From: Blautia parvula
GTDB lineage: Bacteria; Bacillota; Clostridia; Lachnospirales; Lachnospiraceae
DNA length: 64,000 nucleotides
Assembly (NCBI RefSeq): GCF_020215665.1
Contig: NZ_CP084061.1
Coordinates: 248,001-312,000, forward strand
Reading direction: 5' to 3'
Below the pieces are notes generated by a model. It was not told where the DNA came from. It saw nothing but the letters and a program-made list of their open reading frames with translations, and ran no database searches. The stretch's first letter is position 1. Every line of letters starts with the position of its first letter. The position numbers and the translations under genes were made by a program. Below are positions 8,763-61,654 of this stretch, piece after piece.

Positions 8763-10256
8763 ATGGCATTTTATTATGAGGAGCCGTCCAGAACATTTAG
8801 CGAATATCTTCTGATTCCGGGGTATTCGTCCACACATTGTGTGCCGTCCAAAGTGGATCTGAAAACACCTCTGGTGAAATACAAAAAAGGGGAGGAACCG
8901 GCACTGACTATCAACATTCCCATGGTCTCTGCAATCATGCAGTCTGTCTCAGATGACAATCTGGCCGTAGCCCTTGCCCAGGAGGGCGGTATTTCCTTTA
9001 TCTACGGTTCCCAGCCGGTTGAAAAGCAGGCGGAGATGGTGGAAAAGGTAAAACGTTACCGTGCCGGTTTCGTGGTCAGTGACTCTAACGTGTCGCCGGA
9101 GATGACCCTTCAGGATGTGCTTCGTCTTACGGAACAGACGGGCCACTCTACCATAGCTGTCACGGAGGATGGTTCACCGGGGGGAAAGCTGCTCGGCATT
9201 GTCACCAATAAGGATTACCGGGTAAGCCGCATGAACCTGGACTTAAAGGTAAAAGAATTTATGACAAAACTGGACGACCTTGTATATGCAGACGAGGAGA
9301 CGACTCTGAAGGAGGCCAATGACATCATCTGGGAGCACAAGATAAACTGTCTGCCTCTTGTGAATAAGAACCGGGAACTGGTGTATCTTGTTTTCAGGAA
9401 GGATTACGATACACACAAGAAAAATGAAAATGAACTGATTGACAGCCATAAGCGCTACATGGTAGGGGCAGGAATCAACACCAGGGATTACGAGACGCGT
9501 GTTCCGGCACTGATCGGGGCGGGAGCCGATATTCTGTGTATTGACAGCTCGGAAGGCTTTTCAGAGTGGCAGAAGATCACGATTGACTATATCAGGAAAA
9601 ATTATGGAAATGATGTAAAGGTAGGTGCCGGAAATGTGGTGGACGCGGAAGGATTCCGCTTCCTGGCTGAGGCAGGGGCTGACTTTGTCAAGGTGGGAAT
9701 CGGCGGCGGTGCTATCTGTATTACCCGCGAACAGAAAGGCATCGGCAGAGGACAGGCCACTGCATTGATCGAGGTGGCAAAGGCCAGGGATGCGTATTTT
9801 GAAGAGACGGGAATCTATATTCCCATCTGCTCTGACGGCGGAATCGTCCACGATTATCATATTACCCTGGCGCTGGCTATGGGTGCTGACTTTATTATGC
9901 TGGGAAGGTATTTTGCCAGATTTGACGAAAGCCCTACCAAGAAGGTTAATATCAACGGCAGCTATATGAAGGAATACTGGGGTGAGGGCAGCGCGCGGGC
10001 CAGAAACTGGCAGCGGTATGATATGGGAGGCGAGAAAAAACTTTCTTTTGAGGAAGGTGTGGATTCTCTGGTACCCTATGCAGGAAGTCTGAAGGATAAT
10101 GTAAACCTGACTCTGAGCAAGGTCCGCTCTACTATGTGCAACTGCGGAGCGCTCACCATTCCGGAGCTTCAGGAAAAAGCTAAGATCACACTGGTTTCCG
10201 CTACAAGTATTGTTGAGGGCGGCGCACATGATGTGTTGCTGCGGGATCAGAGATAA
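8763..10256 (+). CDS. guaB: inosine-5'-monophosphate dehydrogenase
   Basis: A 497-residue IMP dehydrogenase, which oxidises IMP to XMP with NAD in the committed step of GMP synthesis. The TIM-barrel core is interrupted by a two-CBS Bateman module at about residues 95-215. The catalytic loop is visible as [12 protein letters not shown], with the active-site Cys, followed by the mobile-flap region later ([11 protein letters not shown]). SDGGI and [12 protein letters not shown] mark the phosphate-binding end of the barrel. The ATG has AAAAGGAG upstream. It is a single-gene unit with its own promoter and a strong terminator. The flap sequence differs from the E. coli type, which is common in this class of bacteria. 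Confidence 0.95.
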
Positions 10257-49171: not shown

Positions 49172-49240
49172 GAAATAGGTAATTCTAAGCAATATTGACG
49201 AATCTGCACAATACAGTGCGGAATGACGGAAAAGGAAACT

Positions 49241-50968
49241 ATGTGGATTCTCAAATTTAAACCGGTAGACTGTAAAAATTGTTATAAATGTGTCCGCCAT
49301 TGTCCGGTGAAGGCCATCCGGATCAGGGACCATCAGGCGCAGATCATGCAGGATGACTGTATTCTCTGTGAGAAGTGCACGATCATCTGTCCCCAGCACG
49401 CAAAAGCGGAGAAGAACGATGTGCCCAGTTTGAAGCGGATGATCGCGGAGGGATATCAGCTTGTGGCAAGTGTGAATCCAGCCTATACTGCAAAATACGG
49501 GCCGGGCAGTTTCCCGGTGCTCAGGGAGTCACTGCGGAAACTGGGATTTACGGATGCCAGAGAAGCTGCGGAAGGCACGTATCTGGTGCGAAGAGAATAT
49601 GAACGGATTCTGCAGGAAGGGCAGATGGATGTGATGATCACCTCTGTATGCCCCGCAGTTGTGCGTCTTGTGCGCAGCAAATATCCGGAGCTGGCAAAAT
49701 ACCTGCTTCCGGTGTTATCCCCCATGCAGACCCATGCCAAATATCTGAAAGAGAAAAACAGGGACTGCATTCCGGTATATATAAGCCCGTGCATCTCGCC
49801 CGTTGCGGAAATCTCCGAGAAAAACAATTATTCCGCCTATGTCATAACCTTCGAGGAACTGGATGCCTGGATGGAGGAAAACAGTATCACGGTTGACGCA
49901 GATCAGGAGGAACCGGAGCCTATGCTCTCCAGAATGCGTGCCATGAGCGGCGGCATCACACGGATTATCAGAAAAAATGAAGATTATACCTATCTGAGCA
50001 TTGATGGTGTGGAAAACTGTATGCAGATTCTGGAGGAACTGCGGGAGGGAAAGATACATAAATGCTTTCTGGAGCTGAATATCTGCGAGGGCGGCTGTAT
50101 CGGAGGCCCCTCTTTCCAGAAGGATAAGATACGCAGATTGAAAGGTTCCATGGATGTGATGAAAGCTTCCATGAAAGACCCGTTTTGTCCCGATGATGAA
50201 GCAGATTTCAATCTCCCTGCAGGTATGAACCTGGAGCGGGAATTTATTGAAAAAGAGGTCAGCCATCCAAAGCCCACAGAGGCTGAGCTTCAGGAAATCC
50301 TGAAAAAGATGGGAAAGGCCACCCACCAGAAGGAATTAAACTGCGGTGCCTGCGGATATAACACCTGCAGGGAGAAGGCCATCGCTATTTTCCAGAACAA
50401 GGCGGAGATTTCCATGTGTATTCCCTATATGCGGGAGCGTGAGGCCAGCTATGCCAACAAGATCATCAATTCCATGCCGGGTATGCTGGTGACAGTGAAT
50501 ACAGATCTGGAAGTGGTGCAGCTCAACAGGGCAGCCATGGATTTATTCGATATCCGAAGGAAAAAGGCCATTATCGGCCAGCCGGTGTCAAAGCTTATGG
50601 ATGATTACGCCTTTGTAAATATGCTGGCATTCGGTAAGGGATTTACCCAGGACAAGATTTTTGTGGAGGAATACAAGGTCTATCTGGAGCGTGTTCTCAC
50701 GTATGATAAGAGTAACGGACTGATCATCTGCATTATGAAAAATGTCACAAAAGAGGTGGCACAGCAGCAGGAGGTGCGCCGTACCAGGATCATGGCGGCA
50801 CAGATGGCGGATAAGCTGGCGGACGAACAGCTTCGCATCGTTCATCAGATCGCAGAGCTTTTAGGTGAGACGGCAGCCGACACAAAGGTGGCTGTGGAGA
50901 AGCTGAAGGAGACCATCCTCACAGAACAGGAAAAGTCCGGGACTGACAATCCGGAGGGATGGCTATGA
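49241..50968 (+). CDS. sensory-type [FeFe]-hydrogenase-like protein with PAS domain
   Basis: A 575-residue protein with two N-terminal ferredoxin [4Fe-4S] motifs (CKNCYKCVRHC, CILCEKCTIIC), a reduced H-cluster domain, a [4Fe-4S] segment (CGACGYNTC) and a PAS domain (about 405-510). The four H-cluster Cys ligands are kept (TSVCPA, SPCISP, NICEGGC), but the proton-relay Cys next to the first ligand is Val. This is the pattern of group C sensory hydrogenases (HydS/HfsB-like), thought to report H2 or redox state. ATG 49241 has AAGGA upstream; 49223 lacks one. The stop overlaps the phosphatase start. Confidence 0.9.
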   Translation: MWILKFKPVDCKNCYKCVRHCPVKAIRIRDHQAQIMQDDCILCEKCTIICPQHAKAEKNDVPSLKRMIAEGYQLVASVNPAYTAKYGPGSFPVLRESLRKLGFTDAREAAEGTYLVRREYERILQEGQMDVMITSVCPAVVRLVRSKYPELAKYLLPVLSPMQTHAKYLKEKNRDCIPVYISPCISPVAEISEKNNYSAYVITFEELDAWMEENSITVDADQEEPEPMLSRMRAMSGGITRIIRKNEDYTYLSIDGVENCMQILEELREGKIHKCFLELNICEGGCIGGPSFQKDKIRRLKGSMDVMKASMKDPFCPDDEADFNLPAGMNLEREFIEKEVSHPKPTEAELQEILKKMGKATHQKELNCGACGYNTCREKAIAIFQNKAEISMCIPYMREREASYANKIINSMPGMLVTVNTDLEVVQLNRAAMDLFDIRRKKAIIGQPVSKLMDDYAFVNMLAFGKGFTQDKIFVEEYKVYLERVLTYDKSNGLIICIMKNVTKEVAQQQEVRRTRIMAAQMADKLADEQLRIVHQIAELLGETAADTKVAVEKLKETILTEQEKSGTDNPEGWL

Positions 50969-52137
50969 AGATACATTTTGACAACCTCTTTGCGGATTTC
51001 GGACATGTCAGTCTGAATAAAAAGAAAGAATCCCTCTGCGGAGACTTTTACATTACAGAGGAACGGGGTTCCGACACGGTACTGGTTCTCTCGGACGGCC
51101 TCGGCAGCGGGGTAAAAGCCAACATTCTGGCAACGCTCACAGCAAAAATGCTCTGTACCATGATGATAAAAAAGCTTCCGCTGGACGATGCCGTGGAGGC
51201 CATTGCCAAGACACTTCCCGTGTGCCGCGTGCGGAACATGGCCTACTCCACCTTTACTGCCCTGAAGATAAGCGGCAGACAGGCCTATCTGGCCCAGTAT
51301 GATAATCCGGGTGCCATTCTTCTGAGGGATGGAAGGTCTGTGGAATATCCGGAGACCTCACACAGCATCAAGGAGAAGGAAATCCGGGAGGCAGAGCTTA
51401 CCCTGCAAAAAGACGACGTGCTCATCCTCATGTCAGACGGCGTTACCAATGCCGGTATGGGAAAGACCACCAACGGAGGATGGGGGCGGGAGGATGTAGT
51501 ACGCTTCTGCGAACAAAAATACAAAAAAGAGATGTCAGCCCAGCAGCTGGCAGCCCATATCGCCAGCGCCTGTGTAGACCTGAATTTAGATGAGACAGAT
51601 GATGATATCACGGTTCTGGTGATTAAATTATGTGAGAGGGCAGTTACGAATCTCATGATCGGGCCGCCCAGCCAGATGGAAAAAGATGAGGCATTTTTAA
51701 AACTGTTTTTTGCATCACCCGGAAAGCACATTGTGTGCGGCGGAACCACAGCTAAGTTCGTGGCAGACCATCTGGGTGAGGAATTAGTTTCGCTTGATGA
51801 CACCAGATGCGATGAGGTGCCGGCCATGTCTGCCCTGAAAGGTGTGGATCTGGTCACGGAGGGCCTTCTGACCATCCGGCGTTTGAATATATATGCCAAT
51901 CGCTATTTAAAAGACGGACTGGCAGTGCTTGGTTTCGGCAGGAAAAAGGATGCAGCCGCAAGGCTTCTGGAGGAGCTCTTTGAAAACTCCACAGACATCC
52001 GCATTTTTTTCGGAAATGCCAGAAACCCGGCGAACACAGAACTTCACATAGATGCAGGAGAAAAACTGCGTCTTACCTACCATTTAAAAGATTGTCTGGA
52101 GAAGGCGGGGAAAAAAGTGAAGATGAAAATATGGTAG
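50965..52137 (+). CDS. SpoIIE-type PP2C phosphatase
   Basis: A 390-residue protein with an N-terminal PP2C/SpoIIE serine phosphatase domain (about 1-230). Metal-binding signatures are GDFYI, VLSDGLGSG, ILMSDGVTNAG and DDDITVLVIK. The C-terminal 150 residues (LFFASPGKHIVCGGTTAKF onward) are a separate domain of unknown role. ATG 50965 overlaps the sensor stop by 4 bases and has GGAGGG upstream. Group C [FeFe]-hydrogenases commonly sit next to such phosphatases, so it is the probable signalling output of the sensor. Confidence 0.88.
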   Translation: MKIHFDNLFADFGHVSLNKKKESLCGDFYITEERGSDTVLVLSDGLGSGVKANILATLTAKMLCTMMIKKLPLDDAVEAIAKTLPVCRVRNMAYSTFTALKISGRQAYLAQYDNPGAILLRDGRSVEYPETSHSIKEKEIREAELTLQKDDVLILMSDGVTNAGMGKTTNGGWGREDVVRFCEQKYKKEMSAQQLAAHIASACVDLNLDETDDDITVLVIKLCERAVTNLMIGPPSQMEKDEAFLKLFFASPGKHIVCGGTTAKFVADHLGEELVSLDDTRCDEVPAMSALKGVDLVTEGLLTIRRLNIYANRYLKDGLAVLGFGRKKDAAARLLEELFENSTDIRIFFGNARNPANTELHIDAGEKLRLTYHLKDCLEKAGKKVKMKIW

Positions 52138-52252: not shown

Positions 52253-52732
52253 ATGTTAGACCAATCTTACTACGAAAAGGCAGATGAAATCATTGGGCGG
52301 TACGGAAAGAAACCGTCATCCCTGATTCCGATCATGCAGGACATTCAGGGTGAATACCGCTATCTGCCGGGGGAACTGCTCACTTACACTGCACAGCAGA
52401 TCGGGGTGACAGAGGCAAAAGCTTACAGTGTTGCAACTTTTTATGAGAATTTCTCTTTTGAGCCAAAGGGAAAATATGTCATTAAAGTCTGTGACGGTAC
52501 GGCATGTCATGTGAGGAAATCCATGCCGATCCTGGAGGCACTCTACAAAGAGCTGGGACTGAGCAAGAAGAAACACACCACCGATGATATGATCTTTACT
52601 GTGGAAACCGTATCCTGTCTGGGTGCATGCGGCCTGGCTCCCACGCTGATGGTCAATGAGGAAGTGCATCCCAAGATGTCACCGGAAAAAGTAGTTGCGT
52701 TAGTGCAGGAATTGAGAGGTGAAGGCGCATGA
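52253..52732 (+). CDS. HydC/NuoE-like [2Fe-2S] subunit, second copy (formate dehydrogenase module)
   Basis: A 159-residue NuoE-type subunit, collinear with hydC at 6332 without gaps and differing at about 25 positions. Cluster Cys are in CDGTAC and SCLGACG. AGGAGGG precedes the ATG. It overlaps the NuoF-like gene by 4 bases, as in the hydrogenase operon. Here the third gene is a formate dehydrogenase in place of HydA, so the diaphorase module appears to have been duplicated and re-used. Confidence 0.94.
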   Translation: MLDQSYYEKADEIIGRYGKKPSSLIPIMQDIQGEYRYLPGELLTYTAQQIGVTEAKAYSVATFYENFSFEPKGKYVIKVCDGTACHVRKSMPILEALYKELGLSKKKHTTDDMIFTVETVSCLGACGLAPTLMVNEEVHPKMSPEKVVALVQELRGEGA

Positions 52733-54609
52733 TGATTTCAAACAAAGCAGAACTCGACAAGTGCAGGGAAGCGGCGGTAGAGGAGCTGCAGTCTTACGGA
52801 TGCAGGATCCTTGTCTGTTCCGGTACAGGATGTATTGCCACAGGTTCCGAGAAGATCTATCAGAAGATGATGGAAATCGTGGGGAACACCCCCAATGTCA
52901 CCATTGAATTTGCTCCCCATGACGAGAAAGAACACGTGGGTGTCAAAAGGACAGGCTGCCAGGGCTTCTGTGAATTCGGTCCTCTGGTGCGTATCCAGAA
53001 GGGTGACAAAGTGGTGCAGTACATAAAGGTCCAGCCGGATGACTGTCAGGAAATCTTTGACAATACGGTTATGGGTGACGGCCTTGTGGACAGACTGCTC
53101 TACAAGAAAGCGGAGAACACCTATGTACAGCCGGATGAGATTCCGTTCATTGCAAAACAGACACGTGTGGTTCTGGAAAACTGCGGCAGATTTGACGCGG
53201 AATCCATTGATGAATATATTGCAGCGGGCGGATTCAAAGCCCTGGAAAAAGTGCTGTTTGACATGAAGCCCGAGGATGTTGTGGAGGAAGTGGACCAGTC
53301 CGGCCTGCGCGGCAGAGGCGGCGGCGGATTCCCCACCGGAAGGAAATGGAAACAGGTTGCTGCTCAGGAAGAAAAAGAGCGCTATGTAGTCTGCAACGGT
53401 GACGAGGGTGATCCGGGAGCATTCATGGACGGATCCGTTATGGAAGGTGACCCCTTCAAGCTCATTGAGGGTATGATGATTGCCGGATACGCGGTAGGTT
53501 CCTCTGAGGGATATATCTATGTGCGTGCCGAGTACCCCAACTCTGTGGCAAGGCTGAAACACGCCATTGCAGTTATGGAGGAGAGAAATCTTCTGGGAGA
53601 TGACATTCTGGGAACAGGATTTGCGTTCCATATGCATATTAACAGAGGCGCCGGTGCCTTTGTCTGCGGCGAGGGTTCCGCTCTGACAGCCTCCATTGAG
53701 GGCAACAGAGGATTCCCGCGTACCAAACCGCCGAGAACCGTTGACCATGGTCTGTGGGCAAAACCCACGGTTCTGAACAATGTGGAGACATATGCCAATG
53801 TTCCGAAGATCATCCTGAAAGGCCATGAGTGGTTCCGCACCATCGGAACAGAGGGAAGCCCGGGTACCAAGACCTTCTCCCTGACAGGCTCCATTGAAAA
53901 TACAGGCCTGATCGAAGTTCCCATGGGAACTACCCTGCGTGAGATCATTTATGAGATTGGCGGCGGTCTTCAGGAAGGTTCTGAATTCAAGGCTGTACAG
54001 ATTGGCGGACCGTCCGGCGGATGTCTGACTACCCAGCATCTGGATGAGCCTCTTGATTTTGATTCTGTTAAGAAGTTCGGTGCCATTGTAGGCTCCGGCG
54101 GACTTGTTGTTATGAATACGGACACCTGTATGGTGGAAGTGGCAAGATTTTTCATGAGTTTTACCCAGAGAGAATCCTGCGGAAAATGTGTTCCCTGCCG
54201 TATCGGTACCAAGAGAATGCTGGAAATCCTTGAGAAGATCGTAGCAGGCAAAGGGGAAGTGGAAGACCTTGACAAATTGGAGGAGATCGCAAAGAGTGTA
54301 AAAGATCTGTCTCTGTGCGGCCTCGGAAAGAGTGCACCGCTTCCTGTACTGAGCACTATTCGTATGTTCCGTGATGAATATATGGAGCATATCGTGGATA
54401 AGAAATGTGCTTCCCATACCTGTACAGCGCTTCGGAACTATTATATCAATCCGGAAAAATGTAAGGGATGTACCAAGTGTGCAAGAAATTGTCCGGTTGG
54501 TGCTATCACCGGTGAGAAGAAAGAACCGCATACCATCGATACCGCAAAATGTATCAAATGCGGCGCATGTATAGAAAACTGCAGTTTCGATGCAATCGAG
54601 GTAAGATAG
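52729..54609 (+). CDS. HydB/NuoF-like flavoprotein subunit, second copy (formate dehydrogenase module)
   Basis: A 626-residue paralogue of HydB at 4461, with the same domain order: N-terminal [2Fe-2S] domain (CSGTGC, TGCQGFC), NuoF FMN/NAD core (GRGGGGFPTG, GDEGDPGAF), SCGKCVPC, and two C-terminal ferredoxin motifs (CKGCTKCARNC, CIKCGACIENC). It should pass electrons between NAD(H), possibly ferredoxin, and the formate dehydrogenase subunit 11 bases downstream. This matches electron-bifurcating formate dehydrogenases known in other Clostridia, though bifurcation is not shown by sequence. Confidence 0.94.
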   Translation: MMISNKAELDKCREAAVEELQSYGCRILVCSGTGCIATGSEKIYQKMMEIVGNTPNVTIEFAPHDEKEHVGVKRTGCQGFCEFGPLVRIQKGDKVVQYIKVQPDDCQEIFDNTVMGDGLVDRLLYKKAENTYVQPDEIPFIAKQTRVVLENCGRFDAESIDEYIAAGGFKALEKVLFDMKPEDVVEEVDQSGLRGRGGGGFPTGRKWKQVAAQEEKERYVVCNGDEGDPGAFMDGSVMEGDPFKLIEGMMIAGYAVGSSEGYIYVRAEYPNSVARLKHAIAVMEERNLLGDDILGTGFAFHMHINRGAGAFVCGEGSALTASIEGNRGFPRTKPPRTVDHGLWAKPTVLNNVETYANVPKIILKGHEWFRTIGTEGSPGTKTFSLTGSIENTGLIEVPMGTTLREIIYEIGGGLQEGSEFKAVQIGGPSGGCLTTQHLDEPLDFDSVKKFGAIVGSGGLVVMNTDTCMVEVARFFMSFTQRESCGKCVPCRIGTKRMLEILEKIVAGKGEVEDLDKLEEIAKSVKDLSLCGLGKSAPLPVLSTIRMFRDEYMEHIVDKKCASHTCTALRNYYINPEKCKGCTKCARNCPVGAITGEKKEPHTIDTAKCIKCGACIENCSFDAIEVR

Positions 54610-54620
54610 GAGGAGAGAGA

Positions 54621-57317
54621 ATGATTCATGTTACGATAGACGGAATTCCTGTAGAAGTTGAGAAGGGGACTACCATCTTACAGGCTGCAGAGAAAGCCGG
54701 TGTGAAAATCCCTACATTATGTTATATCAAAGACCTGCTTCCGGATGGCTCCTGCCGTATGTGTATGGTGGAGATCGAAAACAGGGGAAGAAAGAAAATG
54801 GATACCGCATGTTCCTGCCATGTAAGCGAGGGCGATGTGATCGAGACCATGAGCGAGAAGGTAGTGGATGCCAGAAAGACCATCCTGAACCTGCTTTTGT
54901 CCAATCACAAGACAGACTGCTTCTCCTGTGCACAGAACGGCAGATGTAAGCTGCAGGACTACTGCGTGGAATACGGCGTGGAGAGAACCACATACGAGGG
55001 CGAGATGACCGAGTTCCCGGTGGATGACTCCAACCCGTTCTTTACCTATGATCCGAACCTGTGTATTCTCTGCCACAGATGCGTGAATACTTGTAATAAG
55101 GTGGTAGGCCGTGGTGCCATTGACACCATGGAGAGAGGATTTGAGTCCTCCGTCGGAACACCTTTCGGCGTGCCTATCAGAAAGAGTACCTGTGAGTCCT
55201 GCGGAAACTGTGTGGAGGCATGTCCTACCGGAGCACTTTCCTCCAAGAGAAGAAAATCCTTCCGTCCGTGGCAGATCGACAAGAAAGTCCTGACTACCTG
55301 TCCGCACTGTGGTACCGGATGCCAGTTCTATCTGGTAGTCAAAGACAATAAGATCGTGGATGTGGAGCCGGCCAACGGTCCGGCCAACAAAAATCTGCTC
55401 TGTGTAAAAGGACGCAGCGGTTCCTTTGATTTTGTACACTCTGCAGACAGGGTGAAATATCCGCTCATCAAGAACAAAGAGACCGGTGAATTTGAGCGCG
55501 CAAGCTGGGACGAGGCACTGGATCTGGTGGCTTCCAAATTTATGGAGATCAAGAAACAGTATGGTTCTGAATCCCTGGCAGGTTTTGCATGTTCCCGTTC
55601 CCCGAATGAGGACATTTACATGGTTCAGAAGATGGTGAGAACCTGCTTTGGAACCAATAATACAGATAACTGTGCACGTGTATGCCATTCCGCATCCGTT
55701 GCAGGTCTTGCCATGACCCTTGGTTCAGGCGCTATGACCAACCCCATTGCAGACATCACCCAGAAACCGGACCTGATCATGATGGTAGGCTCCAACCCGG
55801 AGGAAGCGCATCCTGTTATTGGCATGCAGATCCGCCAGGCGGTACAGAGAGGCTGCAAACTGATCGTGGTTGACCCACGTGATATAGATCTGTCCAAGAA
55901 AGCAGACATTCATCTGAAATTAAGACCGGGTACCAACGTTGCGTTTGCCAACGGCATTATGCATGTGATCATTGAAGAAGGACTTCAGGATATGAAGTTC
56001 ATCGAAGAGAGAACCGAAGGCTATGAGAAGATCAAAGAGATCGTAAAAGATTATACACCGGAAAAAGTTGCGGAGATTTGCCACATTGACCCGGATGATT
56101 TGAGAAAAGCTGCCATCATGTATGCAAAAGCAGACAAAGCGCCGATCATCTACTGTCTGGGCGTTACCGAGCATTCCACCGGTACAGAGGGCGTTATGTC
56201 CATGTCCAATATGGCTCTGCTGGTAGGCAAGCTGGGACGCGAGGGCTGCGGCGTTAACCCGATCCGCGGACAGAACAACGTACAGGGTGCCTGTGATATG
56301 GGTGCCGGCCCGAAGGATTACCCGGGATACCAGAAAGTGGAGAATCCGGAAGTACGTGAGAAATTCGAGAAAGCCTGGGGCGTGAAGCTGAATCCCAACA
56401 ATGGTCTGCACTCCACAGAAGTATTCCCGGCAGCTATCGAAGGCAAGGTAAAAGGCCTGTACATTTACGGTGAAGACCCCATTGTCACAGACCCGGATAC
56501 CCATCACATTATCAAAGCACTGGAAAATCTGGACTTCTTTGTGATCCAGGAGCTGTTCATGACAGAGACCGCACAGTATGCGGATGTTATCCTTCCGGGT
56601 GTCAGCTACGCGGAAAAAGAGGGTACCTTTACCAACACGGAACGCCGTGTGCAGAGAGTACGCCCTGCTGTGAAGCTGGACGGGGATATGAGACTGGATA
56701 CAGATATCATCATTGACCTGATGAACCGTATGGGCTATCCGCAGCCGCATCTGACCTCCGCTGAGATCATGGATGAGATCGCGTCCGTAACACCAAGCTA
56801 CGGCGGCATCAGCCATGCAAGGCTTGACGCAGGTGAAACGCTGCAGTGGCCGTGCCCGACCAAGGACCACCCGGGAACTCCGATTCTGCATGTGGGCAAA
56901 TTCTCAAGAGGACTTGCCATGTTCTATCCTGCAGAGTATGTTCCGTCCGCAGAGCTTCCGGATGAGGAATATCCGATCATCATGATGACCGGCCGTATGC
57001 TGTATCACTATACAACAAGGGCCATGACCGGAAGAACACCGGGACTTATGGAAATCCAGGGTACCTCCTATATAGAGATGAACTACAAGGATGCCGAGGC
57101 ACTGGGTATCAAAAACGGTGACAAGGTAAAAGTATCCTCCAGACGTGGTCAGATTGAATCCACCGCAAGAGTAGGACGCAAGGTTTCCCAGGGCGAATCC
57201 TGGATGCCATTCCACTTCCCGGATGGAAATGCAAACTGGCTGACCAATGCAGCACTGGACAAATACGCAAGAATACCGGAATACAAGGTATGTGCAATAA
57301 AAATTGAAAAAGTATAA
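54621..57317 (+). CDS. fdhA: formate dehydrogenase catalytic subunit with NuoG-like N terminus (cysteine type)
   Basis: An 898-residue molybdenum/tungsten formate dehydrogenase that oxidises formate or reduces CO2. The N terminus is NuoG-like: [2Fe-2S] (TLCYIKD, SCRMC), the region KTDCFSC, and two ferredoxin [4Fe-4S] motifs (CILCHRC, CESCGNC). The molybdopterin [4Fe-4S] motif TCPHCGTGC starts the catalytic part. The metal ligand is Cys355 in NCARVCHSASV, where many relatives have selenocysteine. The C terminus is the molydopterin-dinucleotide-binding barrel. Start ATG 54621 has AGGAGAG upstream; earlier in-frame codons lie inside hydB2. It ends the diaphorase module, with moeA next. Confidence 0.95.
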   Translation: MIHVTIDGIPVEVEKGTTILQAAEKAGVKIPTLCYIKDLLPDGSCRMCMVEIENRGRKKMDTACSCHVSEGDVIETMSEKVVDARKTILNLLLSNHKTDCFSCAQNGRCKLQDYCVEYGVERTTYEGEMTEFPVDDSNPFFTYDPNLCILCHRCVNTCNKVVGRGAIDTMERGFESSVGTPFGVPIRKSTCESCGNCVEACPTGALSSKRRKSFRPWQIDKKVLTTCPHCGTGCQFYLVVKDNKIVDVEPANGPANKNLLCVKGRSGSFDFVHSADRVKYPLIKNKETGEFERASWDEALDLVASKFMEIKKQYGSESLAGFACSRSPNEDIYMVQKMVRTCFGTNNTDNCARVCHSASVAGLAMTLGSGAMTNPIADITQKPDLIMMVGSNPEEAHPVIGMQIRQAVQRGCKLIVVDPRDIDLSKKADIHLKLRPGTNVAFANGIMHVIIEEGLQDMKFIEERTEGYEKIKEIVKDYTPEKVAEICHIDPDDLRKAAIMYAKADKAPIIYCLGVTEHSTGTEGVMSMSNMALLVGKLGREGCGVNPIRGQNNVQGACDMGAGPKDYPGYQKVENPEVREKFEKAWGVKLNPNNGLHSTEVFPAAIEGKVKGLYIYGEDPIVTDPDTHHIIKALENLDFFVIQELFMTETAQYADVILPGVSYAEKEGTFTNTERRVQRVRPAVKLDGDMRLDTDIIIDLMNRMGYPQPHLTSAEIMDEIASVTPSYGGISHARLDAGETLQWPCPTKDHPGTPILHVGKFSRGLAMFYPAEYVPSAELPDEEYPIIMMTGRMLYHYTTRAMTGRTPGLMEIQGTSYIEMNYKDAEALGIKNGDKVKVSSRRGQIESTARVGRKVSQGESWMPFHFPDGNANWLTNAALDKYARIPEYKVCAIKIEKV

Positions 57318-57489: not shown

Positions 57490-58725
57490 ATGGCACAAAA
57501 CTATCCAAAGAGAATTGAAATACAGGAAGGCATAGACCTGCTTCTCTCCCATACAGAGAGAATGGAGAAGGAAAAGGTAGAGATCAATAAGGCTTACGGC
57601 AGGATTCTGGCCTGCCGGGTACTGGCCAAAGAGAATATTCCGCCCTTTGACCGCTCTCCCTATGACGGCTATGCCATCCGCTCTGCGGATGTTGCAGGTG
57701 CGGGACATGATACGCCGGTGACTCTGAAAATTATTGAGGAGGTACCGGCGGGACATGCGCCCGAAAAAGCGGTAGGGCCTATGGAGGCAGTAAAAATACT
57801 GACCGGAGCGCCTATCCCTCAGGGTGCCGATGCTGTGGTGAAATATGAAGACACTTCCTTTACTGATAAGGAAGTGTGTTTCTTTTCACCCATTGCTTCG
57901 GGGAGCAACATCGTAAAAGCAGGGGAAGATGTAAAGACAGGAGAGGTCGTCATGGAGGAGGGCGGGCATTTAAGCCCTGCGTCCGTGGGACTGCTTGCAG
58001 GTCTCGGGTATGGAGAGGTGGAAGTCTTCAAAAAACCCAGAGTCAGGATCATCAGCACAGGGGATGAGCTTCTGCCCGTATCGGAGGAGCTGAAACCCGG
58101 TAAAATAAGAAACAGCAGTGCCTACATGCTGCAGGGGTTTCTGCGGCAGTGGGGAATCACAGCAGATATCTACGGAATTGTCAGAGATGACGAGGACGCC
58201 ATCAAGGATGCGCTCACCGCGTGTCTGGCCGATGCGGACTGTGTCATAACAACCGGAGGCGCATCTGTGGGGGATTATGACCTGGCCCTTTCCTCTATGG
58301 AGGGAATCGGAGCAGAGGTGCTCTTCTGGCAGGTGAGAATGAAGCCGGGAATGGCAACTCTGGCAGCGGTAAAGGACGGCAGGCTTTTATTGGGCCTTTC
58401 CGGCAATCCATCTGCAGCGGCGGCTGCTTTATTTTTGCTGGGGCTTCCCGCATTCCGCAAAATGTGCGGTAAAAAAGAATACAAAGTGCCCAGTATTCCG
58501 GTATGTCTGCCGGAGGGATTTCCAAAGAAAAGCCCGGGAGGAAGGATCATCCCCGGTATTCTGGAATTCCATCAGGGAAGAGTGTGCTTAAACACCAGGA
58601 AGAATCAGGCAAACGGTATGGTCAGCCCCTGGGGCGGCTGTAATCTCATCGGCATGATTCCAAAAGGCTCGGACGCACTTTTGCCGGGCAGCACCATTGA
58701 TGCCCTTTATCTGGGGGAGGATTAG
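57490..58725 (+). CDS. moeA: molybdopterin molybdenumtransferase
   Basis: A 411-residue MoeA, which inserts molybdate into adenylated molybdopterin. Motifs include PPFDRSPYDGYAIRS at the N terminus, GAPIPQGADAVV, and the MoCo-binding domain with TGDEL, TTGGASVGDYD and LLGLSGNPSAA. It lies next to a molybdoenzyme (fdhA) and begins the cofactor-finishing cluster. The mobA-fusion gene starts 3 bases after its stop, so translation is probably coupled. Confidence 0.94.
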   Translation: MAQNYPKRIEIQEGIDLLLSHTERMEKEKVEINKAYGRILACRVLAKENIPPFDRSPYDGYAIRSADVAGAGHDTPVTLKIIEEVPAGHAPEKAVGPMEAVKILTGAPIPQGADAVVKYEDTSFTDKEVCFFSPIASGSNIVKAGEDVKTGEVVMEEGGHLSPASVGLLAGLGYGEVEVFKKPRVRIISTGDELLPVSEELKPGKIRNSSAYMLQGFLRQWGITADIYGIVRDDEDAIKDALTACLADADCVITTGGASVGDYDLALSSMEGIGAEVLFWQVRMKPGMATLAAVKDGRLLLGLSGNPSAAAAALFLLGLPAFRKMCGKKEYKVPSIPVCLPEGFPKKSPGGRIIPGILEFHQGRVCLNTRKNQANGMVSPWGGCNLIGMIPKGSDALLPGSTIDALYLGED

Positions 58726-58728
58726 GAT

Positions 58729-60003
58729 ATGGTGAAGACAGCAGCAGGGATTCTGGCAGGAGGAAAGAGCAGCAGAATGGGAAAAAACAAGGCTTCCCTT
58801 ACATGGAACGGTGACACCTTTCTGCATACGCTTATAGATGCCTGCCGGGATTTCCCTGAAATCTATGTCTCAGTGGATGACAGGGAAAAATACCGGGATC
58901 TGTCCTGTACACTGGTGGAGGATGAGGAAAAAGAATACGGACCGCTGGAGGGCATTTATCAGGTATTAAAGCAGATGGATGCACCGTATGCGGTGATGCT
59001 TGCCACAGACATGCCCATGATAAGCCGGGAATTTTTAAAGGCTCTGGTGTCAAACATTACCGGTGAGGAGGACTGCCTGGTGCTCAGAAGAGAGGGCAGG
59101 CCTCAGCCGCTGTGCAGTGTGTATGCAAAAAGTATTCTGCCTGTTGTGGAGCATATGCGCAGAAACCGGGAGCACAAGCCCGGACTTTTGTTTCAGCGGG
59201 TCAATACACGGTATCTGGATTTGGAGGAGCTGGGATTCGGAGAGGCGGTCATTGCAAATGTAAATACGCCTGAAGAATATGAACAGCTCTGTTTTCATTA
59301 CGGCAGAAAGCTGCAGGAATTTGCGCCCCGTGTCAGGGAAAAACTGACACACGGAAAGGTAATGGTCTGTTACCTGGACGGATTGGGTTACCGTATGTAC
59401 AAAAATGCGGCGGACAATGGCAGTGTGCCTTTTATCAGCCGTAATTTTTCCGTGCTCCCTGTGAGGACTGTGGAGCCGCCGGTGACGAATCCGGCTATGG
59501 CTACCATGATAACAGGGGAACTGCCGTATGTGCACGGGATACACTCCAGAAAGGACAGGGAAGTTCTGGTCCCCACCCTGTTTGCCGGCAGGAGTGGGGA
59601 AAATACAGCATTTTTAGAGGGGGATACCAGGATTTTGAAGACAGAACTTCTGCCCAGGCTTCATGCTGCGGCAAAGGGAAAAGGCTGCGATTATTGGATT
59701 TACCGGGATGCGTGCAAAGCGGCTTCGGAGGAAAAAGAATTTATTTTTGCCCATTTTCATGAGATTGATGATGCGGCCCATGCAGACGGCCCCTTTAGCT
59801 CTGCGTGTATGGAAAAATTAAAAGAGACAGACGGATATATAGAAGCGCTCTCCGGGATTTTTAAGGGAGAAATCTTGTTGATCAGCGATCATGGCGTGCA
59901 TGAGACCGGTGACGGAGGGACCCATGGGGAGGATCCGTGTTCCAATGGTGTGTACTCCTATAACATAGAGGATATGCTGGCAGTCTGGGGTGAGCATATA
60001 TGA
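58729..60003 (+). CDS. mobA: MobA guanylyltransferase fused to an alkaline-phosphatase-superfamily domain
   Basis: A 424-residue two-domain protein. Residues 1 to about 195 are MobA, which attaches GMP to molybdopterin: LAGGKSSRMGKNK at 9-21 and the Mg-binding LATDMPMIS. Normal MobA is about 190-210 residues. The extra C-terminal domain (about 205-424) has the metal-ligand set of the alkaline phosphatase/NPP superfamily: D217 in YLDGLG, T253 in VTNPAM as likely nucleophile, D347/H351 in EIDDAAH, D387-H388 in ISDHG and H399 in GTHGE. The gene is 3 bases after moeA and overlaps the next gene by 4. The purpose of the second domain is unknown; cofactor hydrolysis or pyrophosphate-related work are guesses. 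Confidence 0.88.
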   Translation: MVKTAAGILAGGKSSRMGKNKASLTWNGDTFLHTLIDACRDFPEIYVSVDDREKYRDLSCTLVEDEEKEYGPLEGIYQVLKQMDAPYAVMLATDMPMISREFLKALVSNITGEEDCLVLRREGRPQPLCSVYAKSILPVVEHMRRNREHKPGLLFQRVNTRYLDLEELGFGEAVIANVNTPEEYEQLCFHYGRKLQEFAPRVREKLTHGKVMVCYLDGLGYRMYKNAADNGSVPFISRNFSVLPVRTVEPPVTNPAMATMITGELPYVHGIHSRKDREVLVPTLFAGRSGENTAFLEGDTRILKTELLPRLHAAAKGKGCDYWIYRDACKAASEEKEFIFAHFHEIDDAAHADGPFSSACMEKLKETDGYIEALSGIFKGEILLISDHGVHETGDGGTHGEDPCSNGVYSYNIEDMLAVWGEHI

Positions 60004-60311
60004 AGATAGAAGATGGTTTGTTTGAAGGCATGACCCCTGTGAAACTCAAGGGGAAGTGTGCTGACGGAGCTGAATATTCCTATCAGGCTTTTTCGGTGAG
60101 TGAGGTACTGGGCAGTGTGACTGCGGACAGCCTTGTGGAGTTTGTGAGCGGGGACGGCAGGGATACGCTTGTTTCCGGTGAAGAAATCCTCGCGGGGGAT
60201 GTATACCTTGCGCAGGATGGAGAGACATACCGTCTCGTGATTCCAAAGGATACACACCGAAGGCGCTGGTGTAAACATATAACAGAAATAGAGAGTGAGC
60301 AGGGAGGGTGA
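60000..60311 (+). CDS. 103-residue protein resembling the C-terminal part of the sulfite-oxidase molybdopterin domain
   Basis: A 103-residue protein starting at ATG 60000, overlapping the mobA-fusion stop. It reads like a shortened oxidoreductase-molybdopterin-binding (SUOX-fold) domain: VEFVSGDG, DVYLAQDGETYRLVIPKDTHRRRW and KHITEIE match the end of that fold, where the typical segment is RLVVPG...RWVKWxTRIEV. The cofactor-ligand Cys and its surrounding loop, expected earlier in the fold, are absent. It could bind a molybdopterin without acting as an oxidoreductase, for example as a carrier. This assignment rests on a short similarity. Confidence 0.5.
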   Translation: MKIEDGLFEGMTPVKLKGKCADGAEYSYQAFSVSEVLGSVTADSLVEFVSGDGRDTLVSGEEILAGDVYLAQDGETYRLVIPKDTHRRRWCKHITEIESEQGG

Positions 60312-60314
60312 CAG

Positions 60315-61445
60315 TTGAAAATCTGTACGATCGTAGGTGTGAGAAAGTCCGGCAAGACCACAACGGTTACCGGACTCATCAAAGAACTGAAAAAACGGGG
60401 ATACCGGGTGGGAACCATAAAGAGTGTGTTCTGTCCCGAATTTACCCTGGACACTTCTGACAGTAATACGTGGAGACACAGGGAGGCGGGCGCTGATCTT
60501 GTCTGTGTAAAAGGGAAAAAAGAGACCGATATTTTACTTCCGGCGGACATAAGCGGGGATTTCTATGAGAAACTGCCTGTGGATTACCTCATACTGGAAG
60601 GAGAGTATGAACTTTGTGTGCCCAGAATCATCTGTGCACATAAGGATGCGGAGGTTTCGGAACGTTTGACAGAGGAGACGATTGCCATAGCAGGGAGACT
60701 TGCCGGGGATAAAAAAACCTATGGGGAGTTCAGAGTCTATCACTCTGTGGAAGAGATATCCGCTCTGGCAGATCTGCTGGAAACACTTCCGGATGCGGAA
60801 TTTCCTTTAAAAAAGCGTCCCATGCTCCAAAAGGCAGCGGCTTTTTGCCAGTGTGGCTGCCATAAGGCAGAGAAAAAGCTGGCCGGAAAGAAAAAACTCA
60901 CGGCCCATCCCTCAGAAGCACATAGAAAACATATCTTCCTGACAGGGGAAAAAGGGGCTGGCAAGAGCACACTTTTAAACCGTATTGTGGAAGAACTGGG
61001 AACAGAGCCGGTGGGTTACAGAACACTACCCTATGAGATCGGCGGTGTCCAGAAGGGATTTTACCTGCACAGCCTGGTACCTGTGGGAGAATACGAAAAT
61101 GACAGTCCGATCCTAATACGGGCCGGTAAGGGAAAGAAGATATCCATACCGGAAACCTTTGAGACACTGGGCGCAGCCGTGATGAAAAAGGTGAAGGAAA
61201 TGCCTGAAAAAACAGCCGTGATAGATGAACTCGGAAAGGCTGAGGCAGATGCCCCCGCCTTTCAGGAAGCATTGTTCTCCTGTCTGGATACCCAGAGTCT
61301 TGTCATCGGTGTCCTGCAGAAGAATACAGGTGCGTTTACACAGGCAGTGGCAGAACGCCCCGACGTGGAAGTGATTGAAGTTACGGAAAAGAACAGAGAC
61401 GGTCTTCTGGAAGAAATCTGTAAAAAAATCAAAAATATGGAATGA
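60315..61445 (+). CDS. mobB: MobB adaptor fused to a THEP1-like nucleoside-triphosphatase
   Basis: A 376-residue fusion. Residues 1-165 are MobB, the GTP-binding partner of MobA (P-loop GVRKSGKTT at 8-16, DTSDSNTWRHREAGA). A short Cys segment C178-Q-C-G-C-H183 follows. From about 205 there is a second P-loop (GEKGAGKST, 211-219) with the THEP1/NTPase family pattern, including DELGKAE as Walker B and the conserved N-terminal GYRT. Both halves look complete. Start is TTG 60315 with GGGAGGG upstream; it is 3 bases after the 103-residue gene. It completes the cofactor cluster; the NTPase's job is unknown. Confidence 0.85.
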   Translation: MKICTIVGVRKSGKTTTVTGLIKELKKRGYRVGTIKSVFCPEFTLDTSDSNTWRHREAGADLVCVKGKKETDILLPADISGDFYEKLPVDYLILEGEYELCVPRIICAHKDAEVSERLTEETIAIAGRLAGDKKTYGEFRVYHSVEEISALADLLETLPDAEFPLKKRPMLQKAAAFCQCGCHKAEKKLAGKKKLTAHPSEAHRKHIFLTGEKGAGKSTLLNRIVEELGTEPVGYRTLPYEIGGVQKGFYLHSLVPVGEYENDSPILIRAGKGKKISIPETFETLGAAVMKKVKEMPEKTAVIDELGKAEADAPAFQEALFSCLDTQSLVIGVLQKNTGAFTQAVAERPDVEVIEVTEKNRDGLLEEICKKIKNME

Positions 61446-61489: not shown

Positions 61490-61540
61490 GATCCTGTTTA
61501 ATACATGAACAGAGTCAGAAAACGGAAATATAAAAAAAAT

Positions 61541-61610
61541 AAAGGGGCAAAACTGTCGTAAGGCAGTGACGCAAAGCCACGGGTCCCAAGGGAGGGACAG
61601 CCGGGCTGCA
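61541..61610 (+). promoter_or_regulatory. cyclic di-GMP-I (GEMM) riboswitch
   Basis: The conserved core is unmistakable: GGGGCAAAACTG, GGCAGTGACGCAAAGCCACGGG and GCCGGGCTGC, the GEMM-I consensus with the GNRA-like tetraloop GCAAAG and the receptor helix. It precedes a terminator and a secreted-protein gene, so c-di-GMP should set expression of that protein. Confidence 0.95.
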
Positions 61611-61654
61611 GACAGTGATGGACAGGGATATTCTGTCCGTCTGTTGTCTTTAAG

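Follow-up and report, generated by a model that had tools for sequence, protein, structure and literature searches.

A MobA fusion to an NPP-like hydrolase in Blautia parvula and its proposed place in molybdenum and tungsten cofactor remodelling

The fusion protein and its operon

Positions 248,001 to 312,000 of the forward strand of contig NZ_CP084061.1 from Blautia parvula (assembly GCF_020215665.1), a 64,000-nucleotide stretch referred to here as the window, include a plus-strand open reading frame (ORF) at 58729-60003 that encodes a two-domain protein of 424 residues and is free of internal stops. The protein matches NTP_transf_3 (PF12804) over residues 8-148 (E = 3.2e-35, 122 bits, cut-off 27) and Phosphodiest (PF01663) from residue 216 (E = 1.8e-11, 44.7 bits, cut-off 23). 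It divides into a MobA-type nucleotidyltransferase half (residues 1-190, 58729-59298) and an alkaline-phosphatase-superfamily half (residues 192-424, 59302-60000) that resembles nucleotide pyrophosphatases/phosphodiesterases (NPPs). The structure was predicted with AlphaFold2 from a 14-row alignment (mean pLDDT 87.2, pTM 0.66), and its fold was searched by Foldseek; per-block scores were 85-98 over hydrolase residues 201-390 and weak over residues 391-420 (59, 42, 76). A first-pass annotation, made from the letters alone, had proposed this pairing of MobA with an alkaline-phosphatase-superfamily domain, and the intact ORF, the two Pfam domains and the Foldseek matches of both halves bear it out. 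An assembly artefact or frameshift was rejected because the same fusion recurs in four genomes of the genus, in three of them on single contigs; the contig with the window is a whole 6.25-Mb genome assembled as a single contig. The MobA-hydrolase fusion is genuine: a rare architecture that a subset of the genus conserves.

Judged by domain and fold, the first half is MobA. Foldseek placed the N-terminal part of the model on Escherichia coli MobA 1h4d (TM 0.84 by target), all nine PDB sequences matched by this half are of MobA type, and it carries the motifs LAGGKSSRMGKNKA, ATDMP and NVNTPEE. Its best NCBIfam match is MobA itself (NF001457, E = 1.8e-33, 115.7 bits, cut-off 164), and the cytidylyltransferase MocA model scores lower (52.6 bits). 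The fold and motifs of this half and its setting in a molybdenum cofactor (Moco) operon are those of E. coli MobA (1h4d/1e5k). The NCBIfam models show MobA on its own or with MobB, MoaC or DUF3305 as fusion partner; in the window protein the partner is a hydrolase.

The active site of the hydrolase half was examined in an alignment of nine sequences including the window's (A1) and in another of 13 hydrolase rows (A5). All seven residues that the first-pass annotation had listed as metal ligands of the superfamily are present: D217 in an LDG motif (59377-59379), the nucleophile T253 (59485-59487), which aligns with the threonine of PSLTFPN in Xac NPP, D347 and H351 in HFHEIDDAAH (59767-59781), D387-H388 in SDHG (59887-59892) and H399 in GGTHG (59923-59925), all on the plus strand. 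The first six are invariant in the nine rows of A1, as are R274 and R277 of an SRKDR motif (59548-59559, plus strand), and H399 is kept in seven rows, the remaining two having a shifted motif. Across A5, conservation is 90% or higher at each of D217, D347, H351, D387, H388 and H399, and the nucleophile is threonine in 12 of the 13 rows and serine in one (L038; L numbers denote loci and G numbers genomes of this analysis). The placement of H399 in the model is unsure because it lies in the weakly scoring stretch of residues 391-420.

By fold and sequence, the hydrolase half is nearest to the NPP class and not to classical alkaline phosphatases. It has the bimetal ligand order of the NPP branch (D, D/H, D/H, H) and the threonine nucleophile of that branch. 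Its best profile match in the PDB is Xac NPP (2gsn, E = 2.9e-10), and Foldseek matched the C-terminal part of the model to Xac NPP and ENPP1 (E = 5e-8 to 2e-7), with PorX also among the matches, so the structure prediction revealed no different fold. Snake venom phosphodiesterase (PDE) structures occur among the profile and fold matches of the hydrolase family; the match to the alkaline phosphatase PafA is far weaker (E = 0.0023). The window protein stays below the Pfam cut-offs of PglZ (13.9 bits, cut-off 25) and Metalloenzyme (18.6 bits, cut-off 24.3); an exported relative, L034, passes Metalloenzyme (40.5 bits) yet scores higher on PF01663 (52.6). Since NPP is the nearest class, cutting of a pyrophosphate is favoured. 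The half shares fold, ligand and nucleophile positions and motif order with Xac NPP, ENPP1-7 and snake venom PDE, but it is compact (with about 225 residues to their roughly 380 or more), and just 10 residues separate D387-H388 from H399. In the profile alignment, moreover, its R274 occupies the place of N111, the phosphate-contacting asparagine of Xac NPP, and the arginine is invariant in the nine rows of A1. The hydrolase is therefore termed NPP-like rather than NPP.

The fusion gene is part of an operon with formate dehydrogenase, MoeA and MobB genes, all on the plus strand. Upstream lie genes for a NuoE-like subunit (52253-52732; PF01257), a NuoF-like diaphorase subunit (52729-54609; profile matches), the alpha subunit of formate dehydrogenase (54549-57317; TIGR01591, 856.9 bits, cut-off 666), a member of an enzyme class that uses bis-molybdopterin guanine dinucleotide (bis-MGD), and the molybdenum insertase MoeA (57490-58725; PF03453 and PF00994). 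Downstream, the gene for a 103-residue protein (60000-60311) joins the fusion gene by an ATGA overlap and is followed by MobB fused to a THEP1-type NTPase_1 domain (60315-61445; PF03205, E = 2.7e-22; PF03266, E = 2e-24; TIGR00176 over its cut-off). The order MoeA, fusion, small protein and MobB-NTPase is kept in three further genomes of the genus (L010, L011 and L012). The 103-residue protein has no Pfam match of its own. It is homologous to a small, exported sulfite-oxidase-like domain of 170 residues (hhalign probability 98.4, E = 5.5e-15) encoded beside exported relatives of the hydrolase, and the window thus retains two members of the exported operon set, plus MobB. The NTPase_1 domain on MobB is possibly a substitute for the kinase of those operons.

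Relatives of the hydrolase and their ECF operons

Relatives were surveyed in 392 genomes of the order (11 matches, including the window's own), in 391 genomes of the class and in a scan of named genomes (15 loci); these samples overlap. The class survey gave 17 strong matches (at least 171 bits) in genomes other than the window's own, matches below 90 bits not being counted because they belong to other families of the alkaline phosphatase superfamily. The fusion is carried by four of the 20 genomes of the genus (G000, G008, G009 and G015), with the hydrolase part 60-84% identical among them, and 16 are without it; L027 lies on the G015 contig and is the same copy as L012. No fusion beyond these four was found among the matches examined in the surveys. 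The fusion was initially seen as isolated, a view that did not hold up, as its hydrolase is the cytoplasmic branch of a larger family. At L028, MobA and the hydrolase are separate neighbouring genes (MobA stop at 8943-8945, next ATG at 8965), and the fusion therefore unites two genes that are adjacent elsewhere. Around the hydrolase of L031 are MoaA, MoaC, a MoCF_biosynth protein and an aldehyde ferredoxin oxidoreductase (AOR).

Hydrolase copies outside the cytoplasmic group (the window, L010, L011, L012/L027, L028 and L031) are referred to as exported-type. A hydrophobic segment precedes the domain in 32 of 38 exported-type ORFs, as compared to none of six cytoplasmic copies; among the other six ORFs, L032 narrowly misses the threshold, L030, L037 and L124 are interrupted or truncated, L025 is incomplete on the 5′ side and L125 is ambiguous. 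A lipobox-like motif is present in 18/38 exported-type ORFs. Their operon has a constant make-up of sulfite-oxidase-like lipoproteins, the S component of an energy-coupling factor (ECF) transporter, the hydrolase, the 170-residue sulfite-oxidase-like domain, the A, A′ and T components of the transporter, a MobB that ends in a Cys-rich tail and a small kinase of the APH/Bud32 type; MoeA comes next in L032 and L033. The 170-residue domain scores slightly below the PF00174 (Oxidored_molyb) cut-off (22.1 bits against 24), and a 371-residue upstream protein of the exported operon passes it. The S component matches PF09819 (ABC_cobalt) and was found in 6/6 exported-type genomes tested against 0/6 with the cytoplasmic hydrolase. 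Among the 29 loci with S, A and T genes, MobB and the kinase are each present in 27. In the class survey, 15 of 17 loci combine ECF genes (S, A, A′ and T in one operon), MobB and the kinase; of the exceptions, L125 has MobB and the kinase without ECF genes and L126 is cut off by the end of its contig. Some ECF operons contain or adjoin genes for very large proteins that have sulfite-oxidase-like matches (L080:3580-6045, L081:9949-12504 and L122:2-3442); these are possibly surface proteins for pterin capture.

Many of these operons carry the Moco/tungsten cofactor (Tuco) riboswitch RF01055. Of the 30 exported-type loci scanned, 20 have it on the hydrolase strand, 5′ of that gene (E = 5e-9 to 2e-16), a count that includes the close relatives L074/L075 and L127/L128. 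It lies within 3.3 kb of the hydrolase in 16 loci and 6.1-7.8 kb away, with genes intervening, in L115, L116, L120 and L123. In G220, where the system is split in two loci (L077 and L078), each is led by an RF01055 riboswitch of its own. Ten exported-type loci have no such element on the 5′ side: the operon starts at or near a contig or stretch end in L035, L112, L113 and L118, the riboswitch is 3′ of the hydrolase on the same strand in L117, L121 and L124 and on the opposite strand in L126, and the scan found no RF01055 in L029 and L125. The scans left out L010, L011, L012, L022, L024, L025, L026, L027, L036, L037, L039, L040 and L041. As for cytoplasmic copies, RF01055 lies on the opposite strand in L031, some 0.8 kb to the 5′ side of the AOR gene, and none was detected in the scan of L028. 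In G105, G167 and G226, the operon is preceded by an AOR gene that is led by a separate riboswitch.

A tree of 38 hydrolase domains, with midpoint rooting only, placed the window, L010, L011, L028 and L031 on one side of a branch (support 93/83; 97/96 without L031). The tree is without the fragments L037, L040, L041, L124 and L126 and without L027, and since L012 was not entered, the G015 copy is absent; the position of L031 is unsure because of its long branch and unusual composition. We infer a single move of the hydrolase domain into the cytoplasm beside Moco genes, followed by the fusion to MobA.

The cofactor genes of 25 hydrolase-bearing genomes were then compared. MoaC is encoded in 17 of them and MoaA in the same 17; both are lacking from the other eight (G049, G105, G167, G226, G426, G428, G429 and G430), which are 8/19 exported-type and 0/6 cytoplasmic-type genomes. 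The first four are 99-100% complete, and the last four are without a listed figure. AOR, a class of enzyme that needs a pterin-metal cofactor, is encoded by all eight, and the absence of MoaA and MoaC in the presence of AOR is a signature of cofactor salvage. All 25 genomes encode AOR and/or a PF00384 protein; PF00384 alone was given little weight as a Moco marker, because NuoG-like proteins can probably match it, and AOR was used instead. The absence of MoaE from 24/25 hydrolase-bearing genomes was likewise rejected as a link to the hydrolase, because MoaE is generally absent in the order: it was found in 2/96 genomes, both among the 24 that have MoaC. With so few MoaC-bearing genomes of the order encoding MoaE, another route must serve for the second step of their Moco synthesis. 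In Dehalobacter, both MoaD and MoaE are reported as missing (PMC4751268).

Proposed cofactor remodelling and its alternatives

Homologous hydrolase domains accompany genes for MobA, MoeA, MoaA/MoaC, MobB, AOR and formate dehydrogenase, mostly under Moco riboswitches, and the tie of the family to Moco/Tuco is strong. The exported members probably mark a cofactor salvage system. The operons led by Moco riboswitches that combine ECF genes, an exported hydrolase, sulfite-oxidase-like domains, MobB and the kinase (L034:6108-13737 in Anaerovirgula multivorans, L074:5945-13978 and L076:7161-15029) are likely importers of Moco or the tungsten cofactor, and riboswitch, gene content and missing MoaA/MoaC point to an ECF importer that would carry Moco or molybdopterin (MPT). 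We hold, with moderate confidence, that the hydrolase half stems from an apparently undescribed bacterial system for salvage and remodelling of molybdenum- and tungsten-pterins, composed of an NPP-like hydrolase that is exported, sulfite-oxidase-like lipoproteins that bind the pterin, a dedicated ECF importer under Moco riboswitch control, a kinase for the pterin and MobB; this system would serve MoaA/MoaC-less bacteria that run tungsten AORs on the cofactor of their neighbours, and the window fusion would be a cytoplasmic, nucleotide-swapping spin-off. A further copy of the operon, L118:4360-8159, adjoins a xanthine-dehydrogenase-type molybdenum hydroxylase and a MoCF_biosynth protein, which suggests a use beyond AOR.

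For the window protein itself, a role as a remodelling enzyme for the molybdenum- or tungsten-pterin cofactor has, in our judgment, slightly better than even chances, the substrate, the bond and the direction of the reaction being the parts we infer. The NPP-like half would cut the pyrophosphate of molybdopterin dinucleotides (MGD, the cytosine form MCD, and bis-forms) into MPT and a nucleotide monophosphate (GMP or CMP), and the MobA half would then add GMP taken from GTP. From recycled cofactor, or cofactor with the wrong nucleotide, the two halves would jointly make the bis-MGD required by formate dehydrogenase; they could also supply AORs with nucleotide-free MPT, and the 103-residue partner may bind the pterin. 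In the exported relatives, the cofactor would be stripped outside the cell, taken in by the dedicated ECF transporter, re-phosphorylated by the operon kinase if needed and passed to MoeA/MobB. Remodelling of MPT dinucleotides is proposed because NPP is the solved class nearest by profile and fold and because the window protein would join both halves of a published in vitro experiment: snake venom phosphodiesterase I, an enzyme of this kind, converts bis-MGD to bis-MPT (99%) and MobA with GTP converts bis-MPT to bis-MGD (66%) (PMC9103625).

The exported operons, although not the window, resemble ECF vitamin transporters in their S, A, A′ and T modules and in a salvage logic whereby a hydrolase acts outside and a kinase inside; they differ by the Moco riboswitch, MobB, sulfite-oxidase-like domains and sometimes MoeA. 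Cobamide remodelling by CbiZ likewise hydrolyses a wrong nucleotide end so that the right one can be rebuilt, with unrelated enzymes and an unrelated cofactor. A literature search, from which subscription papers were mostly outside, found neither an ECF transporter with Moco or MPT as substrate nor a description of such a Moco uptake or salvage system or of a MobA-hydrolase pairing. According to a 2022 paper, the prevailing view is that Moco-requiring cells must synthesize Moco de novo, with Caenorhabditis elegans as an apparent exception (PMC9793310). A 2018 survey counted 292 bacteria (plus 13 nitrogenase-bearing ones) with molybdoenzymes and no complete Moco pathway, with the caveat that unsequenced genes were not fully ruled out as the cause (PMC6147048). 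If our reading is right, some of these pathway-incomplete bacteria could be accounted for by a Moco importer that comes with dedicated processing enzymes, Moco would become a shared good in anaerobic communities, and the fusion would convert between MPT and MGD, the cofactor forms on which different enzyme families rely.

Several observations weigh against this interpretation. The chief doubt from sequence is R274 in place of the NPP asparagine, by which a preference for phosphomonoesters would be possible. Hydrolysis and synthesis in one chain would risk a futile cycle unless regulated. The MobA half scores under the NCBIfam equivalog cut-offs, and its specificity for GTP is therefore only likely. 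No Moco riboswitch was found in the window. All four fusion genomes have MoaA and MoaC and are therefore not dependent on salvage, and AOR is present in three of the four and was not found in G015 (93% complete), so a supply of bare MPT is no general reason for the fusion. The count of MoaA/MoaC-less genomes with AOR covers operon-bearing genomes only, hence it comes with no control from genomes that lack the operon. In sum, the cofactor editing, salvage or turnover suggested by the first-pass annotation is partly supported by gene context, Moco riboswitches and MoaA/MoaC-less AOR genomes; the reaction is less secure, since phosphate removal or another substrate is possible.

The most credible alternative, though an unlikely one, is that the hydrolase is a phosphomonoesterase that removes the terminal phosphate of MPT, or of oxidised or damaged MPT, yielding dephospho-MPT; outside the cell this would precede ECF uptake and re-phosphorylation by the kinase, and in the fusion it would serve to dispose of damaged cofactor. 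The APH/Bud32/thiamine-kinase-type kinase that accompanies the exported form and the arginine at the NPP asparagine position are consistent with this, and alkaline phosphatase dephosphorylates bis-MPT in vitro (95%; PMC9103625). The ranking of NPP far above PafA by profile and fold argues the other way, and a phosphatase fused to MobA would destroy the substrate of the latter. Where the exported form is accompanied by the kinase, its task may well include taking off the last phosphate.

Compared with cleavage of MPT dinucleotides, it seems quite improbable that the hydrolase acts on another pathway nucleotide, for example adenylated MPT, GTP or GDP, for housecleaning or to drive MobA. NPPs act broadly on nucleotide pyrophosphates, and the neighbouring MobB bears a second NTPase domain; however, 32/38 relatives have an export-type hydrophobic N terminus and many relatives are under Moco riboswitches, a setting in which cytosolic MPT-AMP or GTP is no substrate. 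It is also distinctly improbable, and a shade more so, that what the ECF operons bring in is a complex of molybdate or tungstate from which the hydrolase frees the metal. That explanation fits the ABC_cobalt match of the S component and the occurrence of Moco RNA motifs upstream of molybdate transporters, reported in PMC2408646, but the eight AOR genomes without MoaA or MoaC need pterin, not metal, and the operon includes a kinase of small-molecule type. That the hydrolase half is a non-catalytic binding scaffold is extremely unlikely, as nothing speaks directly for it and the catalytic positions are kept in exported and cytoplasmic members alike.

Further observations

Four loci in as many genomes of the genus (L014, L015, L016 and L017) encode another minimal alkaline-phosphatase-superfamily family of about 270 residues and were excluded from the counts as belonging to other families of the superfamily. 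These genes adjoin an RNase H-like gene, and those of L015-L017 also adjoin an HPr-like gene (named by eye).

Further upstream on the plus strand of the window are genes for an [FeFe]-hydrogenase-like protein with a PAS domain (49223-50968) and a SpoIIE-type phosphatase (50959-52137). Similar genes lie immediately 5′ of the MobA and hydrolase genes at L028 (5305-8227), so that this pair, by appearance a redox-sensing one, is near MobA/hydrolase genes both times. Directly downstream of the Moco operon of the window, a c-di-GMP-I-GGC riboswitch (RF03167) is located at 61537-61614.
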